64,000 nucleotides of DNA from Halobacteria archaeon AArc-dxtr1 (GTDB lineage Archaea; Halobacteriota; Halobacteria; Halobacteriales; Natrialbaceae), in assembly GCA_025517425.1 (NCBI GenBank), contig JAOPJY010000003.1:143367-207366 (forward strand), in the 5' to 3' direction. The notes beneath the pieces were generated by a model. It had not been told where the DNA came from. It was given only the letters and a program-made list of their open reading frames with translations, and made no database searches. The position numbers were made by a program, and so were the translations under genes. Of this stretch, positions 27,978-57,911 are shown one piece after another (the stretch's first letter is position 1; each line of letters begins with the position of its first letter).

Positions 27978-28709
27978 TTAGATGACTTCGTCGAAGTCGT
28001 GGTGGCCGTGGATATCGACGCCCTCGTCGGTGATCTCACAGAGGAAGACCCCGTTTCCGGAGCCGGTGTCACGCTCTGCTGCGGACTTGATCCCGCGTGC
28101 GGCGACCGTCGTCGCCTCCTCGTTGGACATGTCCTCCTCGTAGGCCTGCTCTAAGTGACCGTAGGCGAGTTGCATCCCGGAGCCGGTAACGGTGTAGTCG
28201 TCTTCCATGACACCGCCGGCTGGGTCGATGCTGTAGACGTGACTGCCCTCCTCGTCGACGCCGCCCAGAATCGGGTGGATCGCGAAGAACGGGCCGCCAC
28301 GGGCGAAGTTGCCCGCGAGCGTCGCCAGCGCGTTGATGCTCATCGGCTCGCCGCGGCGGGTCTCATAGAGGTTGACTTCGGCACGCAGGCTCGAGATGAA
28401 CGACTGGGCGCCACCGACGCTGCCGACCATCGTCAAGGCGGCAGTCGGGTGGATCTGCTCGACCTTCTGGACGTTCTTGTTCGAGACGAACCGGCCGCCG
28501 AGACTGGCGCGCATGTCCGTCGCGATGACGACGCCGTCGGCCGTCGAGATCCCGATCGTCGTCGTCCCGGTCTTGTTGACCGTGTCGAGATCGGTGCGTG
28601 AGAGGTCGTTTTCGGGCATCGAGCCGAGTTCCGGAGCGTACGGATCCGACTCGGTGGCCAGCTTGTCGACCGTGCGAGAGAATTCCGACTCGTGTGTAGG
28701 CGTACGCAT
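27978..28709 (-). CDS. psmB: Proteasome subunit beta
   Basis: 243-residue catalytic subunit of the archaeal 20S proteasome. An N-terminal propeptide of 48 residues ends at Gly48, and the mature N-terminal nucleophile is Thr49 (NKTG/TTTIGIST). Catalytic Asp and Lys positions are conserved (VVIATDMRASLGGRF). The propeptide length is close to that of haloarchaeal homologues. The core digests proteins delivered by PAN ATPases; the M42 peptidase encoded at 7924-8991 may trim the products. Confidence 0.95.
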   Translation of the reverse strand: MRTPTHESEFSRTVDKLATESDPYAPELGSMPENDLSRTDLDTVNKTGTTTIGISTADGVVIATDMRASLGGRFVSNKNVQKVEQIHPTAALTMVGSVGGAQSFISSLRAEVNLYETRRGEPMSINALATLAGNFARGGPFFAIHPILGGVDEEGSHVYSIDPAGGVMEDDYTVTGSGMQLAYGHLEQAYEEDMSNEEATTVAARGIKSAAERDTGSGNGVFLCEITDEGVDIHGHHDFDEVI

Positions 28710-28730
28710 TGTGCACCACTAACGGCGGGG

Positions 28731-28743
28731 CGATATAAAACCC
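28731..28743 (-). promoter_or_regulatory. TATA box of psmB
   Basis: On the reverse strand the sequence reads GGTTTTATATCG, centred about 27 nt before the psmB ATG (28707-28709). This implies a leaderless transcript. Confidence 0.6.
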
Positions 28744-28835
28744 CGGCGGTCGCAGCACTTCAGGAATCGTCGATCGGCTCCTCTGGGCTGTGGGCACCCA
28801 TCCCGACGCATCGGCACCGAAACCGCCCAATAAGA

Positions 28836-30200
28836 TCAGTCGACGTCGACGCGCGTCCCGTACCCCGACTCGCCAACGACCTCGCCGTCGTCGTAGACGA
28901 CCTCGCCGCGGACGACTGTCGTCGTCGGCGCCCCGGTAAAGGTCTCGCCCTCGAACGGCGTCACGCGACTCTTCGAGTGGAGCGCGTTGCGGTCCTCGAG
29001 GGTCCACTCGCGATCCGGATCGACGAGGGTGAAGTCGGCATCGGTACCAACCTGTAGCGATCCCTTCGTTGGATACAGCCCCCAGACCTCCGCAGGCCGC
29101 GCCGAGTGGTGGTAAACCCACTCCTCGAGGGAGAGCCAGCCACGGTCGACGAAGGTGAGCATCGCGGGAACCTCCGTCTCAAGGCCGACGAACCCCGAAA
29201 TCGACTCCCAGGTGTCGGCGAAGGGGTCGTCGACGCCTTTCTCCGCGTCGGTGTGGGGTGCATGGTCGGTCGCGATGCAGTCGATCGCGCCGTCCTCGAG
29301 AGCGTCCCAGAGCCGTGCGCGCTCTTCGCGGTCTCGAATCGGCGGTTGCACGCGCGCGACGTTTCCTTTCTCGCGAAGGACCTCCTCGGTGAACCAGAGG
29401 TAGTGTGGACAGGTTTCGGCGGTGACGTCGACGCTACGATCGCGGCCGTCCGCGACCGCCTCGGCAGCCGAACCCGAGGAGACGTGAAACATGTGAATCT
29501 TGGCGTCGGTCTCCTCGGCGAACGTCACCATCCGCTCGACCGCCTCACGCTCTGCGATAACGGGTCGGGAGTGGGCGTGATCGATCGGCTCGTTTTTTTC
29601 TTCGGCTTGGAACTGCGCCGTATAGTGGTCGATGATCTCGCCGTTCTCCTCGTGGAAACCGAGTCGCTTGCCCGTCTCGCGGATCGCCTCCATCGCCTCG
29701 AGGATCTCGCCATCGGTCGGCGGCGGCACGTCGCCGACCGTCGAGCCGAGAAAGATCTTGTAGCCAAGCGCCCCGGCGTCGTCTATGTCGGGAATCAGAT
29801 CGAGGTTCTCGGAGGTGACGACCGCGTAGCTCTGGAAGTCGACGTGTGCACCCGCCTCGCCGCGTTCGAACTTCAGTTCGAGGTGTTCGGGTCGATCGAT
29901 CACCGGGTCGGTGTTTGGCATCCCGACGACGGTCGTCACGCCGCCAGCGGCCGCAGAACGGGTGGCAGACTCCCAGTCTTCTTTGTACTCGAGACCCGGC
30001 TCGCGGTTGTGGATGTGACAGTCGACGATGCCGGGGACCAGCACGCGACCGTCGGCGTCGATCTCTCGTCTTGCCTCGGGCAGTCGATCGCTGCGAGCGA
30101 CGGCGGCGATCGTCTCGTCCTCGACGGCGACGCCTGCGTCTTCGGTGCGGCCGGCCGGCGTGACGACGGTGCAGTTTCGAACGACGAGATCGACGGTCAT
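28836..30200 (-). CDS. Cyclic amidohydrolase, dihydroorotase/allantoinase type
   Basis: 454-residue TIM-barrel amidohydrolase from ATG 30198-30200 (MTVDLVVRNCTVV). Metal-site motifs are DCHIHNREPGLEYKEDW (HxH), GALGYKIFLGST with the likely carboxylated Lys, FHVSSGSAAE, and the catalytic Asp in DCIATDHAPHTDAEKG. The last motif (TDHAPHT) is standard for dihydroorotase and allantoinase. NREPG instead of LREPG sets it apart from the common PyrC, so it may be a second dihydroorotase, an allantoinase or a hydantoinase. No pyrimidine or purine catabolism genes are adjacent. Confidence 0.82.
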   Translation of the reverse strand: MTVDLVVRNCTVVTPAGRTEDAGVAVEDETIAAVARSDRLPEARREIDADGRVLVPGIVDCHIHNREPGLEYKEDWESATRSAAAGGVTTVVGMPNTDPVIDRPEHLELKFERGEAGAHVDFQSYAVVTSENLDLIPDIDDAGALGYKIFLGSTVGDVPPPTDGEILEAMEAIRETGKRLGFHEENGEIIDHYTAQFQAEEKNEPIDHAHSRPVIAEREAVERMVTFAEETDAKIHMFHVSSGSAAEAVADGRDRSVDVTAETCPHYLWFTEEVLREKGNVARVQPPIRDREERARLWDALEDGAIDCIATDHAPHTDAEKGVDDPFADTWESISGFVGLETEVPAMLTFVDRGWLSLEEWVYHHSARPAEVWGLYPTKGSLQVGTDADFTLVDPDREWTLEDRNALHSKSRVTPFEGETFTGAPTTTVVRGEVVYDDGEVVGESGYGTRVDVD

Positions 30201-30249
30201 CTGGCTAGACGGTTCAATTTGGGGCGGATAAAACTTCCGCGAACGGCTC

Positions 30250-30423
30250 TCAGCGGGACTGTGCGCTCTCGTAGGCCTCACCCACGTTCGCGAGGAGGCG
30301 GTGGACGGGGAGGGAGAGTCCAACCCGATTGGCGGCGATCGCCAGTGGCATCGCCGTGATGCCGATCAGGATGCACAGTTGGTACAGGGCGAACAGGGTC
30401 GCGTGGTACGCGCGGGATATCAT
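30250..30423 (-). CDS. Small membrane protein, 57 residues
   Basis: Short reverse-strand frame from ATG 30421-30423 to TGA 30250-30252. Translation starts MISRAYHATLFALYQL and includes a hydrophobic helix (LYQLCILIGITAMPLAIAA) followed by a polar end (LPVHRLLANVGEAYESAQSR). A strong TATA sits at 30452-30460, about 30 nt upstream. Codon choice matches the neighbouring genes. I do not recognise a characterised family. A single helix with amphipathic ends suggests an accessory subunit or regulator of a membrane complex. Confidence 0.72.
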   Translation of the reverse strand: MISRAYHATLFALYQLCILIGITAMPLAIAANRVGLSLPVHRLLANVGEAYESAQSR

Positions 30424-30752
30424 CGGCGTTCGCTCGTGTGCAGATCAAGGGTGTATATAAGCCTTTGTGAAGAGTGCAGACCATCACCGTTGTTCGTGTC
30501 GGTATCAGGTCGACGCAGTCGTGCGATTCAACTAGAGTTTCGCCAAAGGCAACCGAAGGCGCACTCGCGTCGAACTATATGGATCCCAACGGAAATCGAT
30601 GGACTCTATTCTCATAACGTATGGCCATCATCCGAAGCACGTGCGCGGCCAGCCAGCGCGCGCAATCGGGCGTTTCATGCGGTGTGCGCCCGTTTCGCAG
30701 TCGTTCCGGATCGAACCGCAAGACAGGAAACCCCCCGGACCGATTAGTCGGT
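30424..30752. other. 329-bp intergenic region
   Basis: Divergent region between the 57-residue membrane protein gene and the DUF555 gene. It carries the leftward TATA described separately. I see no further open frame or RNA gene that I can support. Confidence 0.45.
30452..30460 (-). promoter_or_regulatory. TATA box of the 57-residue membrane protein gene
   Basis: TTATATACA on the reverse strand, centred about 32 nt before ATG 30421-30423. It supports real transcription of this very short gene. Confidence 0.55.
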
Positions 30753-31106
30753 ATGAGCAACTATCTCGTCGGGATGGAGGCCGCGTGGTTGGTTCGGGAC
30801 GTCGACGCAATCGACGACGCGATCGGCGTCGCGGTCAGCGAAGCGGGCAAACGACTCAACAGCCAGAATATGGAGTACGTCGAGGTCGAGGTCGGCGCGA
30901 CCGGCTGTCCGGCCTGTGGCGAACCGTTCGACTCGGCGTTCGTCGCAGCCGATACCGCTCTCGTGGGTCTGGCCCTCGAGATGGAGGTGTTCAACGCCGA
31001 CGGCGAGGAACACGCCTCGAGAATCGCGAAAAGTGAGGTCGGCGGTGCCCTCCGAGACGTCCCGCTCTCAGTCGTCGACGTCCTCGAGACAGAGGCAGAC
31101 GAGTAA
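30753..31106 (+). CDS. DUF555 (UPF0212) family protein
   Basis: 117 residues from ATG 30753 (MSNYLVGMEAAWLVRDVDA). The central GATGCPACGEPFDSAFVAADTALVGLALEMEVFN with a CPAC pair is typical of the archaeal UPF0212 family. Function is unknown; the Cys pair may bind zinc. The length is normal for the family. The upstream in-frame extension to 30621 is not conserved in character. Confidence 0.82.
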   Translation: MSNYLVGMEAAWLVRDVDAIDDAIGVAVSEAGKRLNSQNMEYVEVEVGATGCPACGEPFDSAFVAADTALVGLALEMEVFNADGEEHASRIAKSEVGGALRDVPLSVVDVLETEADE

Positions 31107-31179
31107 GGTAGTTGGCGCTCGTCGCCGCTACCGTGAGGCCGTCGGGCGGCGAGTACGGCAGCCACCCCAAAGCATTTCT

Positions 31180-31194
31180 ATAACTAACAGTTAT
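31180..31194. promoter_or_regulatory. Operator-like palindrome before the HTH-CBS gene
   Basis: ATAACT-AAC-AGTTAT is an exact inverted repeat with 6-bp arms and a 3-bp spacer. It ends eight bases before the ATG at 31203 and overlaps the probable promoter (TTCTATAAC). Its position suggests autoregulation. The arms equal the outer arms of the thiC palindrome at 57886-57911. Confidence 0.55.
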
Positions 31195-31202
31195 TGATTC
31201 GC

Positions 31203-31742
31203 ATGGAACTGCCGACGCCAGCCGATCTCCGGCAGCGGCGTACCGACCTCGGGCTGACCCAGAGCGAACTCGCAGAGAAGGCCGACGTCTCTCAGCCGCT
31301 GATCGCCAGGATCGAAGGCGGCGACGTCGACCCTCGACTGTCGACGTTACGACGCATCGTCAACGCGCTCGAAGAGGCCGAAAGCGACGTGATCCGCGCC
31401 GAGGATCTGATGAACGAGGCCGTCGTCAGCGTCGCCCCCGACGAACCGGTCAGCGAGGCCGCCAGCCGGATGGAATCGGAGGCGTACTCGCAACTCGCCG
31501 TTATTCAAAACGGGATCCCAGTCGGCTCGATTAGCCAGAGCGACCTCGTTCGCCTCGATTCTGAATCCCGGGATGAGCCCGTCGAGACCCACATGAGCGA
31601 GAGCTTTCCGACGGTCTCGAAAGATGCCACGCTAGACGAGATCAGCAACCTGCTCGAACACTACAAAGCAGTCATGATCACCGAGGCCGGCGAGACGGTC
31701 GGCATCATTACCGAGGCAGACCTCGCAGCTCGGCTCTCCTGA
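31203..31742 (+). CDS. HTH-CBS domain transcriptional regulator
   Basis: 179 residues from ATG 31203. The N-terminal Xre-type helix-turn-helix (about 5-55; LRQRRTDLGLTQSELAEKADVSQPLIARIEGG) is followed by two CBS repeats (about 66-118, starting VIRAEDLMNEAVVSVAPDEPVSEA, and about 122-178 with TVGIITEADLA). CBS pairs bind adenine nucleotides, SAM or similar ligands, so this is a ligand-responsive regulator. An earlier TTG at 31194 would add three residues and is less likely. The upstream palindrome suggests autoregulation. Confidence 0.88.
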   Translation: MELPTPADLRQRRTDLGLTQSELAEKADVSQPLIARIEGGDVDPRLSTLRRIVNALEEAESDVIRAEDLMNEAVVSVAPDEPVSEAASRMESEAYSQLAVIQNGIPVGSISQSDLVRLDSESRDEPVETHMSESFPTVSKDATLDEISNLLEHYKAVMITEAGETVGIITEADLAARLS

Positions 31743-31810
31743 GACTGGCCTTGTGGCTCGCTTCTCCTAACACCGATCGAAACGAGCGCCGCGGTTCGAC
31801 TCGTCGTCGG

Positions 31811-32587
31811 TTAGACGGCCAGATACTCCGTGACCGTCTCCCGATCGTCGAGGTCGGCGGCGTCGAGTTCGTCGACGATTGTTCCCTTGTCGACGGCGTA
31901 ACAGCGTTCCGCGAGGTTCTGGATGACCTGCAGATTCTGTTCGACGAACAGAATCGTCGTTCCGAGTTCCTCGTTTATGTGCTGTAGGTCTCGGGTAATC
32001 TCCTGGACGATCGACGGCTGAACCCCTTCAGAGGGTTCGTCGAGCAAGAGCAGGTCTGGGTTGCCGATCAGCGCGCGGCCGATCGCCAGCATCTGCTGTT
32101 GTCCGCCACTCATCGTGCCGGCTTTCTGTGTCCGGCGCTCGGCGAGAATCGGGAAGTACTCGTAGACCTCGTCGTACAGCAGCGTGTCGTCGTCCGCGTT
32201 GATGGTTTCGCCCATCGTTAAGTTCTGTTCGACCGTCAGATCGGGGAACACGTCCCGTCCCTGCGGTATGTATCCCATGCCACGGCAGGCGCGCTCGTCC
32301 GCGCTCGTCCAGGTTCGAAGGCTGGTAGCGCCCAGTCGCGAGCGCACGCGATTGGCGAACGTAGCGGCCGACTCCGGTTCGGCGGCGTCCGCGACGACAT
32401 CGTCTTTGAACACGATCTGGCCCGATCGCGGTTCGAGGAGTCCCATGATCGCCTTCACGAGGGTCGTCTTTCCGACCCCGTTTTTACCCATGATGCCGAC
32501 GATCTCACCGTCGTCGACGTCGATGCTCACGTCCCGAAGGATCGGCGTCTTTCCGTAGGAGACGCCAAGGTTCTCGACGCGCAACAT
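31811..32587 (-). CDS. urtE: Urea ABC transporter ATP-binding protein UrtE
   Basis: 258-residue ATPase, one of the pair driving the branched-chain-type urea importer. Walker A is GKNGVGKTT, signature MSGGQQQMLAIGRAL, Walker B LLLLDEPSEGVQP. Before the Q-loop (GYIPQGRDVFP) there is an insertion of roughly 30 residues (about 67-95) absent from ordinary LivF/UrtE proteins, explaining the greater length. The gene is last of urtABCDE. ATG 32587 overlaps the urtD stop. Assignment to urea rather than amino acids rests on the adjacent urease operon and the UrtA-like binding protein. Confidence 0.88.
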   Translation of the reverse strand: MLRVENLGVSYGKTPILRDVSIDVDDGEIVGIMGKNGVGKTTLVKAIMGLLEPRSGQIVFKDDVVADAAEPESAATFANRVRSRLGATSLRTWTSADERACRGMGYIPQGRDVFPDLTVEQNLTMGETINADDDTLLYDEVYEYFPILAERRTQKAGTMSGGQQQMLAIGRALIGNPDLLLLDEPSEGVQPSIVQEITRDLQHINEELGTTILFVEQNLQVIQNLAERCYAVDKGTIVDELDAADLDDRETVTEYLAV

Positions 32588-33366
32588 CACGACTCCTCCC
32601 CCAGGTAAATCCGCTTGACTTCAGGGTCCTCTCTGATCTCTCCGATCGATCCCTCGGTGAAGATCGAACCTTGGTGTAACACCGTCACCCGGTCGGCGAT
32701 CGATTCGACGAAATCGATATCGTGCTCGATGACGATGAACGCGACGTCGTCTTCTGCCCTGATCTCCTGGAGGTAGGTTCCGATCCGCTCGGTCTCCTCG
32801 ACGGAGAGTCCAGCGACGGGTTCGTCGAGCAACATCAACGTCGGTTCGAGACTGAGTGCCATTCCGATTTCGAGGCGCTGTTGTTGTCCGTGCGAGAGGT
32901 TCGCAGCTTTGGTGCCCGCGTACGCAGCGAGGTCAGCGCGATCAAGAACCTCGCGGGTTCGCGTCGCGTACTCCGACGGCGAACAGACGCGCTGGAGTGG
33001 GATGCGAAGGTTTTCTCGAACGGTGAACGACTCATACACGCTCGGAACCTGAAACTTCATGCTGATGCCGCGGTCGACGCGCTCGTGAGACGGGAGTTCC
33101 GTGATATCGGCACCGTTGTAGTAGATCACGCCCTCAGAGGGCGAGAGCTGTCCCGTGAGGAGGTTGAGCAGCGTACTCTTCCCCGCACCGTTGGGTCCGA
33201 TCAGACAGCGCAGTTCGCCGGCGTCGATACCGAAGTCGACGTCGTCCGTCGCGGTAATCCCGCCGAAGTGCTTACTCAGGCTCCGAGTCTGGAGAATCCG
33301 GTCTGTCTGCTGGCCAGTTTCGTCCGCCGCAGCCGTCGTCTTGACTGTCGGGTCGCTAACACCCAT
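32587..33366 (-). CDS. urtD: Urea ABC transporter ATP-binding protein UrtD
   Basis: 259-residue ATPase of the LivG/UrtD type. An N-terminal extension of about 25 residues precedes SLSKHFGGITATDDVDF. Walker A is GPNGAGKSTLLNLL, signature LSHGQQQRLEIGMAL, Walker B LMLLDEPVAGLS; the RGISMKFQVPSVYESFTVREN segment before the helical domain is typical of UrtD. Start and stop overlap the neighbours by one base each, so translation is coupled within urtABCDE. Confidence 0.9.
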   Translation of the reverse strand: MGVSDPTVKTTAAADETGQQTDRILQTRSLSKHFGGITATDDVDFGIDAGELRCLIGPNGAGKSTLLNLLTGQLSPSEGVIYYNGADITELPSHERVDRGISMKFQVPSVYESFTVRENLRIPLQRVCSPSEYATRTREVLDRADLAAYAGTKAANLSHGQQQRLEIGMALSLEPTLMLLDEPVAGLSVEETERIGTYLQEIRAEDDVAFIVIEHDIDFVESIADRVTVLHQGSIFTEGSIGEIREDPEVKRIYLGEES

Positions 33367-34469
33367 CAGTCAGTCACCTCCTCGGGAGTCGCAGGCGGCC
33401 CAGATGACTCGTCCGAGCGACTCTCCTGAATCCAGACGTAGACGTCCTGTACCGCAGGAGCCATCCCTTTCGGTAGCAAGAGGATGACCGCGACGAGCAG
33501 CGATCCAACCATGACCAGTGCCCACTCGTCGGCGAGCTGGAGTTCGAACCACTGGATCGCTATCGCGGCCGCGGCAGTCCCGATGAGCGATTCCCGGCCA
33601 CCGATGCTGGCCCAGATCACCGGCGCCGCTGCGGCCGTGATCTCGAAGACGTTCGGGTTGATGTAGTTGTCCGTCGTGACGAACAGCACGCCACCGAGAC
33701 CAGCGATCGCGCCGCCGGCCGTGAACGTGGCGAACTTGATGAACGTCGTGTTGTAGCCGAACATCTCGGTTCGTTCTTCGTCTTCGCGCGTCGCAACCAT
33801 CGCGTACCCAAAGCGGCTGTTCACGAGCCAGCGCAACAGCAGGTAGGTCCCGATCAGGGCTCCGAGGACGACGTAGAACTGTGCGGCGTCCCCGAACTCG
33901 ATGCCGGTCTCGCCGATCCCGATACCGAGGTTCGGAATGCCGGGCATCCCGTTGTGACCGCCAAGTCGCGCTTCGCCGATCGCCCACTCGCTGCCGGCGG
34001 TCTGTCGCATGAACGTGAACAACACGAGTGCGACGACTAACGTGATGATCGTGACGTAGACCTCTCTGACGCCACCGTAGAACATGAAGTAGCCGAGTAC
34101 GGCGGCGAAGCCTGTCGACACGAGTAGTGCGACGACGATACCGAGTGTCACCCCGGTGAACGCCTCGAGATTGAATGCGACGATCCCGAAGGTGTAGCCG
34201 CCGACGCCGAAGAACGCCACCTGGCCGAAGCTCAGGATGCCACAGTACCCCCAGATGAAACAGAGGCTGATCCCGAGCAACGCGAACACCATGAACCCGG
34301 TGACCGTCCGTGCGGCGTACGGCCCGAACAGCACGGGGTACAGCGCGAGCAACAAGACACCGACGGAGAGCCCGATCCAGAACGCCCTGGAGTTGCCGAG
34401 CGTGTTCGGCCCTTCGAACGGCGCTCTGAGTCGCTCACCGAGCGTCGGGCTGCGGTCGGGCTCTGTCAT
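33366..34469 (-). CDS. urtC: Urea ABC transporter permease UrtC
   Basis: 367-residue polytopic permease of the LivM/UrtC class with about ten helices. Landmarks are ALLGISLCFIWGYCGILSFGQVAFFGVGGY (first conserved loop) and MVATREDEERTEMFGYNTTFIKFATFTAGGAIAGLGGVLF, the EAA-like region that contacts the ATPases. The C-terminal 30 residues are cytosolic and charged. It overlaps urtB by ATGA and urtD by one base. Confidence 0.9.
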   Translation of the reverse strand: MTEPDRSPTLGERLRAPFEGPNTLGNSRAFWIGLSVGVLLLALYPVLFGPYAARTVTGFMVFALLGISLCFIWGYCGILSFGQVAFFGVGGYTFGIVAFNLEAFTGVTLGIVVALLVSTGFAAVLGYFMFYGGVREVYVTIITLVVALVLFTFMRQTAGSEWAIGEARLGGHNGMPGIPNLGIGIGETGIEFGDAAQFYVVLGALIGTYLLLRWLVNSRFGYAMVATREDEERTEMFGYNTTFIKFATFTAGGAIAGLGGVLFVTTDNYINPNVFEITAAAAPVIWASIGGRESLIGTAAAAIAIQWFELQLADEWALVMVGSLLVAVILLLPKGMAPAVQDVYVWIQESRSDESSGPPATPEEVTD

Positions 34470-35377
34470 TCTGACTCCCTCCGTTTTTCACGCCAGTTTT
34501 CGACCACGCCGGTGATCCCGTCGGGCATCAGCCTGATGGCGAAGATGGCGACGATCAGCATCATGATTTCACCCATGAACTGCCCCCAGCCGACGGTGAA
34601 GATGGCGTCGACCGTCCCGAGCACGCTGCTCGCGAGCGAGGTGCCGAGGATCACCGACGGGCCGCCAACGACGACCGCGACGAACGCGTCGACCAGGTAT
34701 CCGGTACCGAACTCCGGTCCGAGCGAGCCGCCGAACGCCGGCGCCAGGAGGGCACCGGCCAGTCCGGCCAGTCCGGAGCCGATCGCGAACGTCGTCATGT
34801 ACATGCGGTCGGTGTCGACGCCCATGCTCCGTGCCGTCTCTGGGTCCTGCATGGTCGCACGGGCTCGAACGCCGAAGTTCGTCCGCGTGAACAGCCAGTA
34901 CAGGAAGATGAGCACGATGATCGCCGCGCCAGCGAGCATCGTCCGGTAGGTGCCGGAGGTGTACGGACCGTAGCTGATGCTGCCAAAGGGCGTGCCGATG
35001 CTGTCCAGTGAGCTTCCCCACTGGATGCGAACGAGTTGCATGATCGCGATACTGATCCCGAACGTGAGCACCATCGAATCGAGCAGCCTGTCGTAGACGT
35101 GTCGGATAATCGTCCGCTCGAGGATCAGCCCGAACACCGTCGTCGCGAGAACGCCGACGACCATCGCTGCGGGGAGTGGGAGCCCGGCGTGAAACGAGAG
35201 GGCCGTCCCGTAGGCGCCAATGAGGATGAACTCCCCGTGGGCTAAGTTGATGATCCCCATCATCCCGAAGATGATCGCCAGGCCGACCGTCGCGAGCACG
35301 ATGATACCGAAGCTCCGCGTGAACTCGAACAGCACCCGTAACACTTCGTACTGATCTACTGCCGCAATCGTAATCAT
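34466..35377 (-). CDS. urtB: Urea ABC transporter permease UrtB
   Basis: 303-residue permease of the LivH/UrtB class with about eight helices. Typical features are VGLAIIFGMMGIINLAHGEFILIGAYG near the N-terminus and MQDPETARSMGVDTDRMYMTTFAIGSGLAGLAGALLAP in the coupling loop. Its start lies 3 bp after the urtA stop and its stop overlaps urtC by ATGA, so these genes form one transcript. Confidence 0.9.
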   Translation of the reverse strand: MITIAAVDQYEVLRVLFEFTRSFGIIVLATVGLAIIFGMMGIINLAHGEFILIGAYGTALSFHAGLPLPAAMVVGVLATTVFGLILERTIIRHVYDRLLDSMVLTFGISIAIMQLVRIQWGSSLDSIGTPFGSISYGPYTSGTYRTMLAGAAIIVLIFLYWLFTRTNFGVRARATMQDPETARSMGVDTDRMYMTTFAIGSGLAGLAGALLAPAFGGSLGPEFGTGYLVDAFVAVVVGGPSVILGTSLASSVLGTVDAIFTVGWGQFMGEIMMLIVAIFAIRLMPDGITGVVENWREKRRESE

Positions 35378-56437: not shown

Positions 56438-57883
56438 TCAGTCGTCGCTTGCGGCGCGATCGGCGGCGTCCGGTTCGTCGTCGAACGTCGGGATTTCCGC
56501 CGAGTCGTGGGTACCCACCGGCGGCAGGTTGACGTCGGCGGCAGGCGAGGCGTCGAGGTCAGTTTCGCCCGACAGCGTCCGCATCTCGCCGTCGTCGCTC
56601 GTCTCTCGTGCGTCCTGGTCGATCCGCATCGAACAGAACTCGACGCCACACATCGAGCAAAAGCGCGCTTCCTTGTAGTTGTCCCCGGGCAGCGTCTGGT
56701 CGTGGTACTCGCGGGCGCGCTCGGGATCGAGCGCGAGCGCGAACTGCTCGCGCCAGTCGAAGGCATAGCGTGCCTCAGAGAGGGCGTCGTCCCAGTCGCG
56801 GGCGCCGGGGAGGCCGTTGGCGACGTCGCCGGCGTGGGCTGCGATCCGGTAGGCTGCGAGGCCGTCACGGACGTCTGCTTCCTCGGGGAGCCCCAGGTGC
56901 TCTTTGGGGGTGACGTAACAGAGCATCGCCGCGCCCTCCTGGGCGGCGATGGCCGCGCCGATCGCGCTCGTGATGTGGTCGTAGCCGGGTGCGATGTCGG
57001 TCACGAGCGGCCCGAGGACGTAGAACGGCGCACCGTTGCAGACCTCGCGCTGGCGCTCGACGTTCTTGGCGATGCGGTCCATCGGGACGTGGCCCGGTCC
57101 CTCGACCATGACCTGGACGCCGCGGTCTTGGGCGATTCGGGTGAGCTCGCCTAACGTGTCGAGTTCGGCATACTGGGCCTCGTCGCAGGCGTCGGCCAGC
57201 GAGCCGGGCCGGAGACTGTCTCCGAGACTGAAGGTGACGTCTTGCTCGACGAAGATTTCGCAGATCTCGTCGTAGACCTGGAACAGGGGATTCTGCTCGC
57301 CGTGTGCTTCCATCCATTTTGCCATGATCGAGCCGCCGCGGGAGACGATTCCCGTCGTCCGGCCGTCGGTCAGGGGCAGGTGTTCGGCGAGGATGCCGGC
57401 GTGGATCGTCATGTAGTCGACGCCCTGCTCGGCTTGCTTCTCGATGACGTCGAGCAGCAGGTCGGTGGTGAGGTCCTCGGGACTGCCGGCCCGCTTGACG
57501 GCCTCGTAGAGGGGGACGGTGCCGATCGGTACCGGCGAGTGCTCGACGTTGGCCTCGCGGATCTCGTCCAAGTCGCTTCCCGTCCCGAGGTCCATCACCG
57601 TGTCGGCGCCGTGGTGGACCGCAGTGTGGAGCTTCCGCAGTTCGGTCTCGATATCGCTGGTCTCGGCACTGTTGCCGATGTTCGCGTTGACCTTCGTCGA
57701 GAACGCCTCGCCGATGATCATCGGGTCGAGCGTCCCGTGGTTGCGGTTGGCCGGGATAACGGCTGTTCCCTCGGCAACCTGCTCGCGAACGAACTCCGGG
57801 TCGCGGTTCTCTCGCTCGGCGACTCGCTCCATCTCGGACGTGACGACCCCGTCTCTGGCGGCCTGTCGCTGCGTTTGTGCCAT
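56438..57883 (-). CDS. thiC: ThiC, phosphomethylpyrimidine synthase
   Basis: 481-residue radical-SAM enzyme converting aminoimidazole ribotide to the hydroxymethylpyrimidine phosphate of thiamine. Landmarks are [72 protein letters not shown] and the C-terminal cluster motif [11 protein letters not shown]. Length is slightly greater than that of short archaeal forms because of an acidic tail. It is transcribed alone from a promoter overlapped by a 26-bp palindrome; no TPP riboswitch is visible in the leader, which is only a few bases long. Confidence 0.95.
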
Positions 57884-57885
57884 CG

Positions 57886-57911
57886 ATAACTAGATAATAT
57901 TATCCAGTTAT
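57886..57911. promoter_or_regulatory. 26-bp near-perfect palindrome at the thiC promoter
   Basis: The left arm ATAACTAGATAAT and the reverse complement of the right arm (ATAACTGGATAAT) differ at one position. The element lies between the thiC start codon (57881-57883, two bases away) and a TATA box (57908-57916), so a bound protein would block transcription start. A thiamine-responsive repressor of the archaeal ThiR type is a reasonable candidate. Confidence 0.75.

Follow-up and report, generated by a model that had tools for sequence, protein, structure and literature searches.

In bacteria, methionine control relies on MetJ, MetR and S-adenosylmethionine (SAM) riboswitches. The haloarchaeal HTH-CBS protein discussed here would share a task with these systems, as it would act on the genes for SAM synthetase and methionine synthase. 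Nevertheless, the folds of MetJ and MetR are unrelated to that of HTH-CBS and riboswitches are RNA, while here the promoter is archaeal and the proposed regulator is HTH-CBS. The XRE/Cro-CI autorepressors (Pfam HTH_3) also combine an HTH_3 domain with a dyad in their own core promoter, but HTH-CBS adds a CBS-pair sensor and putative sites located upstream of the BRE and TATA box of metabolic genes. The CBS pair of MJ0100 (PDB 3kpb and 3kpc, matched chains that are CBS only), a binder of SAM/MTA, is homologous to that of HTH-CBS (profile match, E ~8e-6), although this match is no pointer to SAM binding or to any ligand, because HTH-CBS has numerous CBS homologues with solved structures and many of them score better.

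In archaea, the thiamine regulon of ThiR, an HTH-ThiN protein, was reportedly described in 2017 by Rodionov et al. and by Hwang et al. According to excerpts of PMC12029414, ThiR is a central regulator of thiamine synthesis and occurs in all Haloarcula and Natrinema species studied. The likeness to the present case is that of a haloarchaeal HTH regulator with an AT-rich promoter element whose half-site core is ATWAY. By contrast, ThiR has a ThiN sensor and thiamine targets, and a domain search found no ThiN domain in HTH-CBS. The DNA sites differ as well, the ThiR-type element of thiC and tenA being a 26-bp double unit with a spacer of 3, whereas the HTH-CBS site is a single 15-bp dyad with a spacer of 5. 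A literature search by all-terms matching, in which few subscription papers were covered, returned no report of an HTH-CBS methionine/SAM regulator, and the excerpts of PMC8305020 and PMC13286277 contain nothing on the HTH-CBS gene.

The HTH-CBS gene and the palindrome in its promoter

The features of the locus within the window (the whole stretch of 64,000 nucleotides that was analysed), together with the operator sites found in other genomes, are collected in Table 1. HTH-CBS scores above the HTH_3 cut-off of XRE/HTH_3 regulators and carries the two CBS repeats of a CBS-pair sensor. One match per genome was found in 194 of the 194 genomes sampled from the class. Among 112 orthologues, residues 29-36, 38 and 41-50 of the HTH are invariant, and the recognition helix is without variation. 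In the CBS pair, G108, G167, T170 and D173 are likewise invariant, while 107 of the 112 proteins keep S111 and 104 keep D114; these residues resemble the G-x-x-[ST]-x-x-D-like motif that presumably marks CBS pairs with adenosyl ligands. A DUF555 gene lies upstream on the same strand, less than 400 bp away, in 73 of 80 loci, and is possibly linked to HTH-CBS. A tRNA scan of positions 28000-35000 found no tRNA.

Table 1. Coordinates of the features described in the text (positions in the window unless a locus of another genome is named)
Feature	Position or locus	Strand	Remarks
Candidate 15-bp dyad operator ATAACTAACAGTTAT	31180..31194	+	class consensus ATWACYNNNRGTWAT; conserved in 116/117 promoter records
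Putative BRE-like block CCCCAAA	31165..31171	+	C/A columns conserved 10-15 bp before the dyad
Putative TATA-box-like element TTTCTATA	31175..31182	+	overlaps the first bases of the dyad; conserved T columns 3-6 bp upstream of it
HTH-CBS regulator gene, 179 aa	31203..31742	+	single-copy in 194/194 genomes searched
HTH_3 domain, residues 9-57	31227..31373	+	Pfam PF01381, 44.7 bits (cut-off 23)
CBS pair, residue 67 to end	31401..31739	+	Pfam PF00571, two stretches, 2.2e-21
DUF555 gene upstream, a conserved neighbour	30753..31106	+
thiC promoter element ATAACTAGATAATATTATCCAGTTAT, 26-bp, ThiR-like, outside the proposed HTH-CBS regulon	57886..57911	-
thiC	56438..57883	-	NF009895, 683.7 bits
Operator before S-adenosylmethionine synthetase (MAT)	L242, L243, L258, L260, L262-L267
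Operator before MetE-like methionine synthase	L245, L259, L261
Operator before Cys/Met-metabolism PLP enzyme	L249, L250, L252, L254, L256

A first-pass annotation of this DNA had pointed to an ATAACT-AAC-AGTTAT dyad in front of the HTH-CBS gene and to the identity of its arms with the outer six bases on each side of the thiC palindrome. Both observations hold, the dyad being separated from the ATG by 8 bases. With up to two mismatches tolerated, the HTH-CBS and thiC dyad patterns have one match each in the window, compared with means of 0.07 and 0.10 matches, respectively, in dinucleotide shuffles of it. Across the 2.8-Mb genome, ATAACT-N(0-30)-AGTTAT matches solely at these two sites, a count that is unremarkable because the pattern is so loose (one match for the reversed control). 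The HTH-CBS dyad is judged real because it is conserved among promoters.

This conservation was assessed in 117 promoter records (80 orthologous loci of named genomes, 36 promoters of further genomes and the window's own), of which at most 113 are distinct, as at least four of the 36 probably duplicate genomes already in the set. In 116 of the records, the consensus lies no more than 60 bp ahead of the ATG, and the remaining one departs from it by a single mismatch. In the control region, from -200 to -60 of the same promoters, there are no matches, and shuffles also give none. The distance from operator to ATG is 8 bp in 91 of the 116 records, 7 in 16, 9 in 8 and 14 in one. Pairs 1-15, 2-14, 4-12 and 5-11 are complementary in all 116, and positions 1, 2, 4, 5, 11, 12, 14 and 15 are invariant because the pattern itself fixes them. 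Consequently, the evidential weight lies in the number of matching records and the empty control region rather than in the invariant columns. Of the 116 operators, 101 have C and 15 have T as the sixth base; thus, the T shared by the arms of the window's HTH-CBS and thiC dyads is unconserved, and only three operators combine an ATAACT with an AGTTAT arm. The spacing of the BRE-like and T blocks places the dyad between the TATA box and the start codon.

A scan of 194 genomes with the consensus gave 341 sites, against 77 for the reversed pattern, and at least one site was present in 193 of the genomes, against 56. The strict form ATAACYNNNRGTTAT gave 32 sites in 41 genomes, 28 of them at HTH-CBS; the 4 elsewhere were not above the control (6), and further candidate targets emerged with the wider consensus. 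The relaxed form ATAACCNNNGGTTAT, with two mismatches, was uninformative because forward matches exceeded the reversed control in only 8 of 25 genomes. In the window's own genome, a scan with ATAACTNNNAGTTAT showed no excess (13 matches, 15 in the control), and no exact second operator was found. By its sequence conservation, the candidate operator is a class-wide haloarchaeal element.

The element before thiC

The promoter element of thiC, a gene found in 25 of 41 genomes, is a 26-bp double unit made of two successive ATWAY-N3-RTWAT-like units. A 26-base consensus is matched with at most three mismatches by 23 of the 25 thiC promoters and with 6-11 mismatches by the 117 HTH-CBS promoters, counts that are descriptive and no test because the consensus was drawn by eye from the same thiC promoters. 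For a few of these, the start codon was placed some codons off. The spacing of the ATWAY/RTWAT core differs between the two elements. With a spacer of 5, the core is exact in 117 of 117 HTH-CBS promoters and in none of the 25 of thiC. With a spacer of 3, it is exact in 11 of the 25 thiC promoters and one mismatch away in another 12, and in no HTH-CBS promoter is it exact. A spacer of 8 gives exact cores in four promoters of each kind.

When the window's genome was scanned with the 26-mer, allowing three mismatches, one other site appeared (control, 0), at C1:948667-948692 (L195:1501-1526), directly before a tenA-like gene (PF03070, 8e-49). With thiC and the tenA-like gene, the thiamine regulon of this genome has no fewer than two members. 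The thiC element is read as ThiR-like because its only other genomic copy precedes tenA, and thiC, as far as promoter sequences tell, belongs to a separate ThiR-like regulon. The genome also encodes two ThiN-domain proteins, at C1:1131129-1131602 (L147) and C1:676514-676981 (L148), and HTH-like stretches can be made out by eye close to the N-terminus of each, as described for ThiR. One of the two may be a ThiR paralogue.

Among 19 genomes with both sites, the six-base arms at HTH-CBS and thiC are identical in one, the window's own. Moreover, six genomes that are at least 97% complete (G006, G009, G013, G024, G035 and G037) have the HTH-CBS operator and no thiC match. The suggestion that a related factor may bind both sites stands only in the weak sense that their half-sites share the core ATWA(C/T).

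Operator sites at methionine and SAM genes

From the genome-wide matches, 38 non-self sites were fetched in three batches (4; 19 of 20; 15 of 20), the remaining six being HTH-CBS itself. The sites of the two larger batches were picked among the matches listed, by hit count and sequence likeness and before their genes were inspected, and repeats within a genus were favoured; listed sites of G067 (five), G080 (four), G158 (two) and G092 (one) were left out. Eighteen of the 38 lie before methionine/SAM genes (10 MAT, 3 MetE-like and 5 Cys/Met PLP), a share that represents no random sample because genomes and places were hand-chosen from hit counts and listed matches. By batch, it was 0/4, 3/19 and 15/15. 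Six of the 18 proteins were identified by Pfam/NCBIfam, and the others were named by their likeness to these six. Thus named, genes of all three types have exact 15-bp operators in several genera. The distance from site to ATG is constant for each gene type, at 58-59 bp for MAT, 48-49 bp for MetE-like and 82-83 bp for Cys/Met PLP genes. In four Cys/Met PLP promoters (L249, L250, L254 and L256), the operator is followed, some 10 bp further on, by an extra AGTAAT half-site. In the window's genome, a one-mismatch operator, GTAACTGTGGGTTAT, is found upstream of metX (homoserine O-acetyltransferase) at C4:7720-7734 (L012:1501-1515), which may be due to chance.

Among the three gene types, the systematic promoter survey covered MAT, which is encoded in 106 of the 106 genomes sampled; a second, more divergent MAT gene is present in four of them (G096, G100, G114 and G117). 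The best match per genome was taken, and 105 promoters were anchored on a TATA region similar to AAGTTATA, one (L364) being without anchor. A perfect half-site, scored as ATWACY or RGTWAT, occurs at offsets -38 to -36 in 85 of the 105 promoters, 76 of them at -37, and every other offset gives at most 7. Only 7 of the 105 promoters have two perfect halves at -37. Many sites in Natrialbaceae have a perfect left half and an RGGCAT-like right half, and several other genera show the converse, a perfect right half preceded by ATGCC or ATGTC as the left half. The window's genome has ATTACTATTAAGCAT at the fixed place, with three mismatches to the operator and the left half alone perfect. In family f12, neither half fits in several genomes and one half fits in others. 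Several of its promoters (L276, L278, L333, L339 and L345) have, at this fixed place, stretches that resemble a dyad but do not fit the operator (for example, ATGCGTAGCGCGCAT); these may represent a diverged half-site or the site of another factor.

At MAT, the site precedes the BRE and TATA box, whereas at HTH-CBS it follows the TATA box. The position of the MAT site suggests that of an activator, and opposite effects of the bound protein at MAT and at its own promoter appear likely because the sites are on different sides of the TATA box.

A proposed circuit and its rivals

These observations make it moderately probable that HTH-CBS is an XRE-CBS regulator with two roles, repression of its own gene at the core promoter and control of methionine/SAM genes through sites placed upstream. 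The first-pass annotation had suggested autoregulation and named absence of the repeat from orthologous promoters as the evidence against it; nearly all of them keep it, which supports the suggestion. Autoregulation is likely, since the operator is so widely conserved, the gene is single-copy in every genome searched and the HTH is near-invariant. HTH-CBS, presumably as a dimer, would bind the 15-bp dyad between the TATA box and the start codon, where it may hinder the transcription machinery and so repress its own gene. At MAT, MetE-like and Cys/Met PLP genes, it would also bind site variants that immediately precede the BRE and TATA box, and would probably activate these genes, while its CBS pair may sense an adenosyl ligand such as SAM. 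The fuller proposal, a class-wide methionine/SAM regulator of Halobacteria that senses a SAM-type ligand through its CBS pair, represses itself and drives MAT, methionine synthase and Cys/Met PLP genes, is quite possible but somewhat short of probable.

Other readings would account for parts of these data. HTH-CBS might regulate only itself, with another factor of similar half-site acting at the look-alike sites of MAT, MetE-like and Cys/Met genes. This is rather unlikely: most MAT sites do consist of one perfect and one variant half, and some dyads of family f12 mismatch entirely despite the near-invariant HTH, but exact operators of equal length and spacing precede three types of methionine/SAM genes in several genera, and the query that brought these sites up was the HTH-CBS operator. 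Conversely, a separate methionine regulator might bind all of the sites, the HTH-CBS gene being a target rather than encoding the binder. Binding of HTH-CBS to its own promoter is indeed something that we infer, which leaves room for such a regulator; against it, the operator and HTH-CBS co-occur in 193 of 194 genomes and the HTH is near-invariant, like the operator core. Autoregulation is, moreover, common in the XRE-type class, and we consider a separate regulator clearly improbable.

The proposal of the first-pass annotation that HTH-CBS and thiC form one regulon, or share one binder, has become very improbable. In the window's genome, the outer arms are identical and only two such exact dyads exist, and the ATWAY/RTWAT core is common to both elements. 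However, the spacers differ, the thiC-type element recurs solely before tenA, arm identity is confined to one of 19 genomes and the operator persists in six genomes with no thiC match; for the first three of these reasons, a common regulon was rejected. A chance palindrome or mere core-promoter motif is next to negligible, for although an AT-rich dyad adjoining a TATA box might suggest one, the symmetric invariance across the records and the lack of upstream control matches speak against both. Pure chance, in particular, is refuted by the conservation and the empty control region.

Regulation by HTH-CBS of itself and of methionine/SAM genes predicts one DNA site, three types of target gene and one class of ligand. 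It also separates two AT-rich operators that are confusable from sequence alone, one with a spacer of 5 and the other with a spacer of 3. HTH-CBS thus probably controls itself and the methionine/SAM pathway rather than vitamin B1 synthesis. If true, this would name a haloarchaeal circuit for methionine and S-adenosylmethionine control, one without counterpart in the literature search, and would provide a function for a regulator that is present once in each of the 194 haloarchaeal genomes searched.
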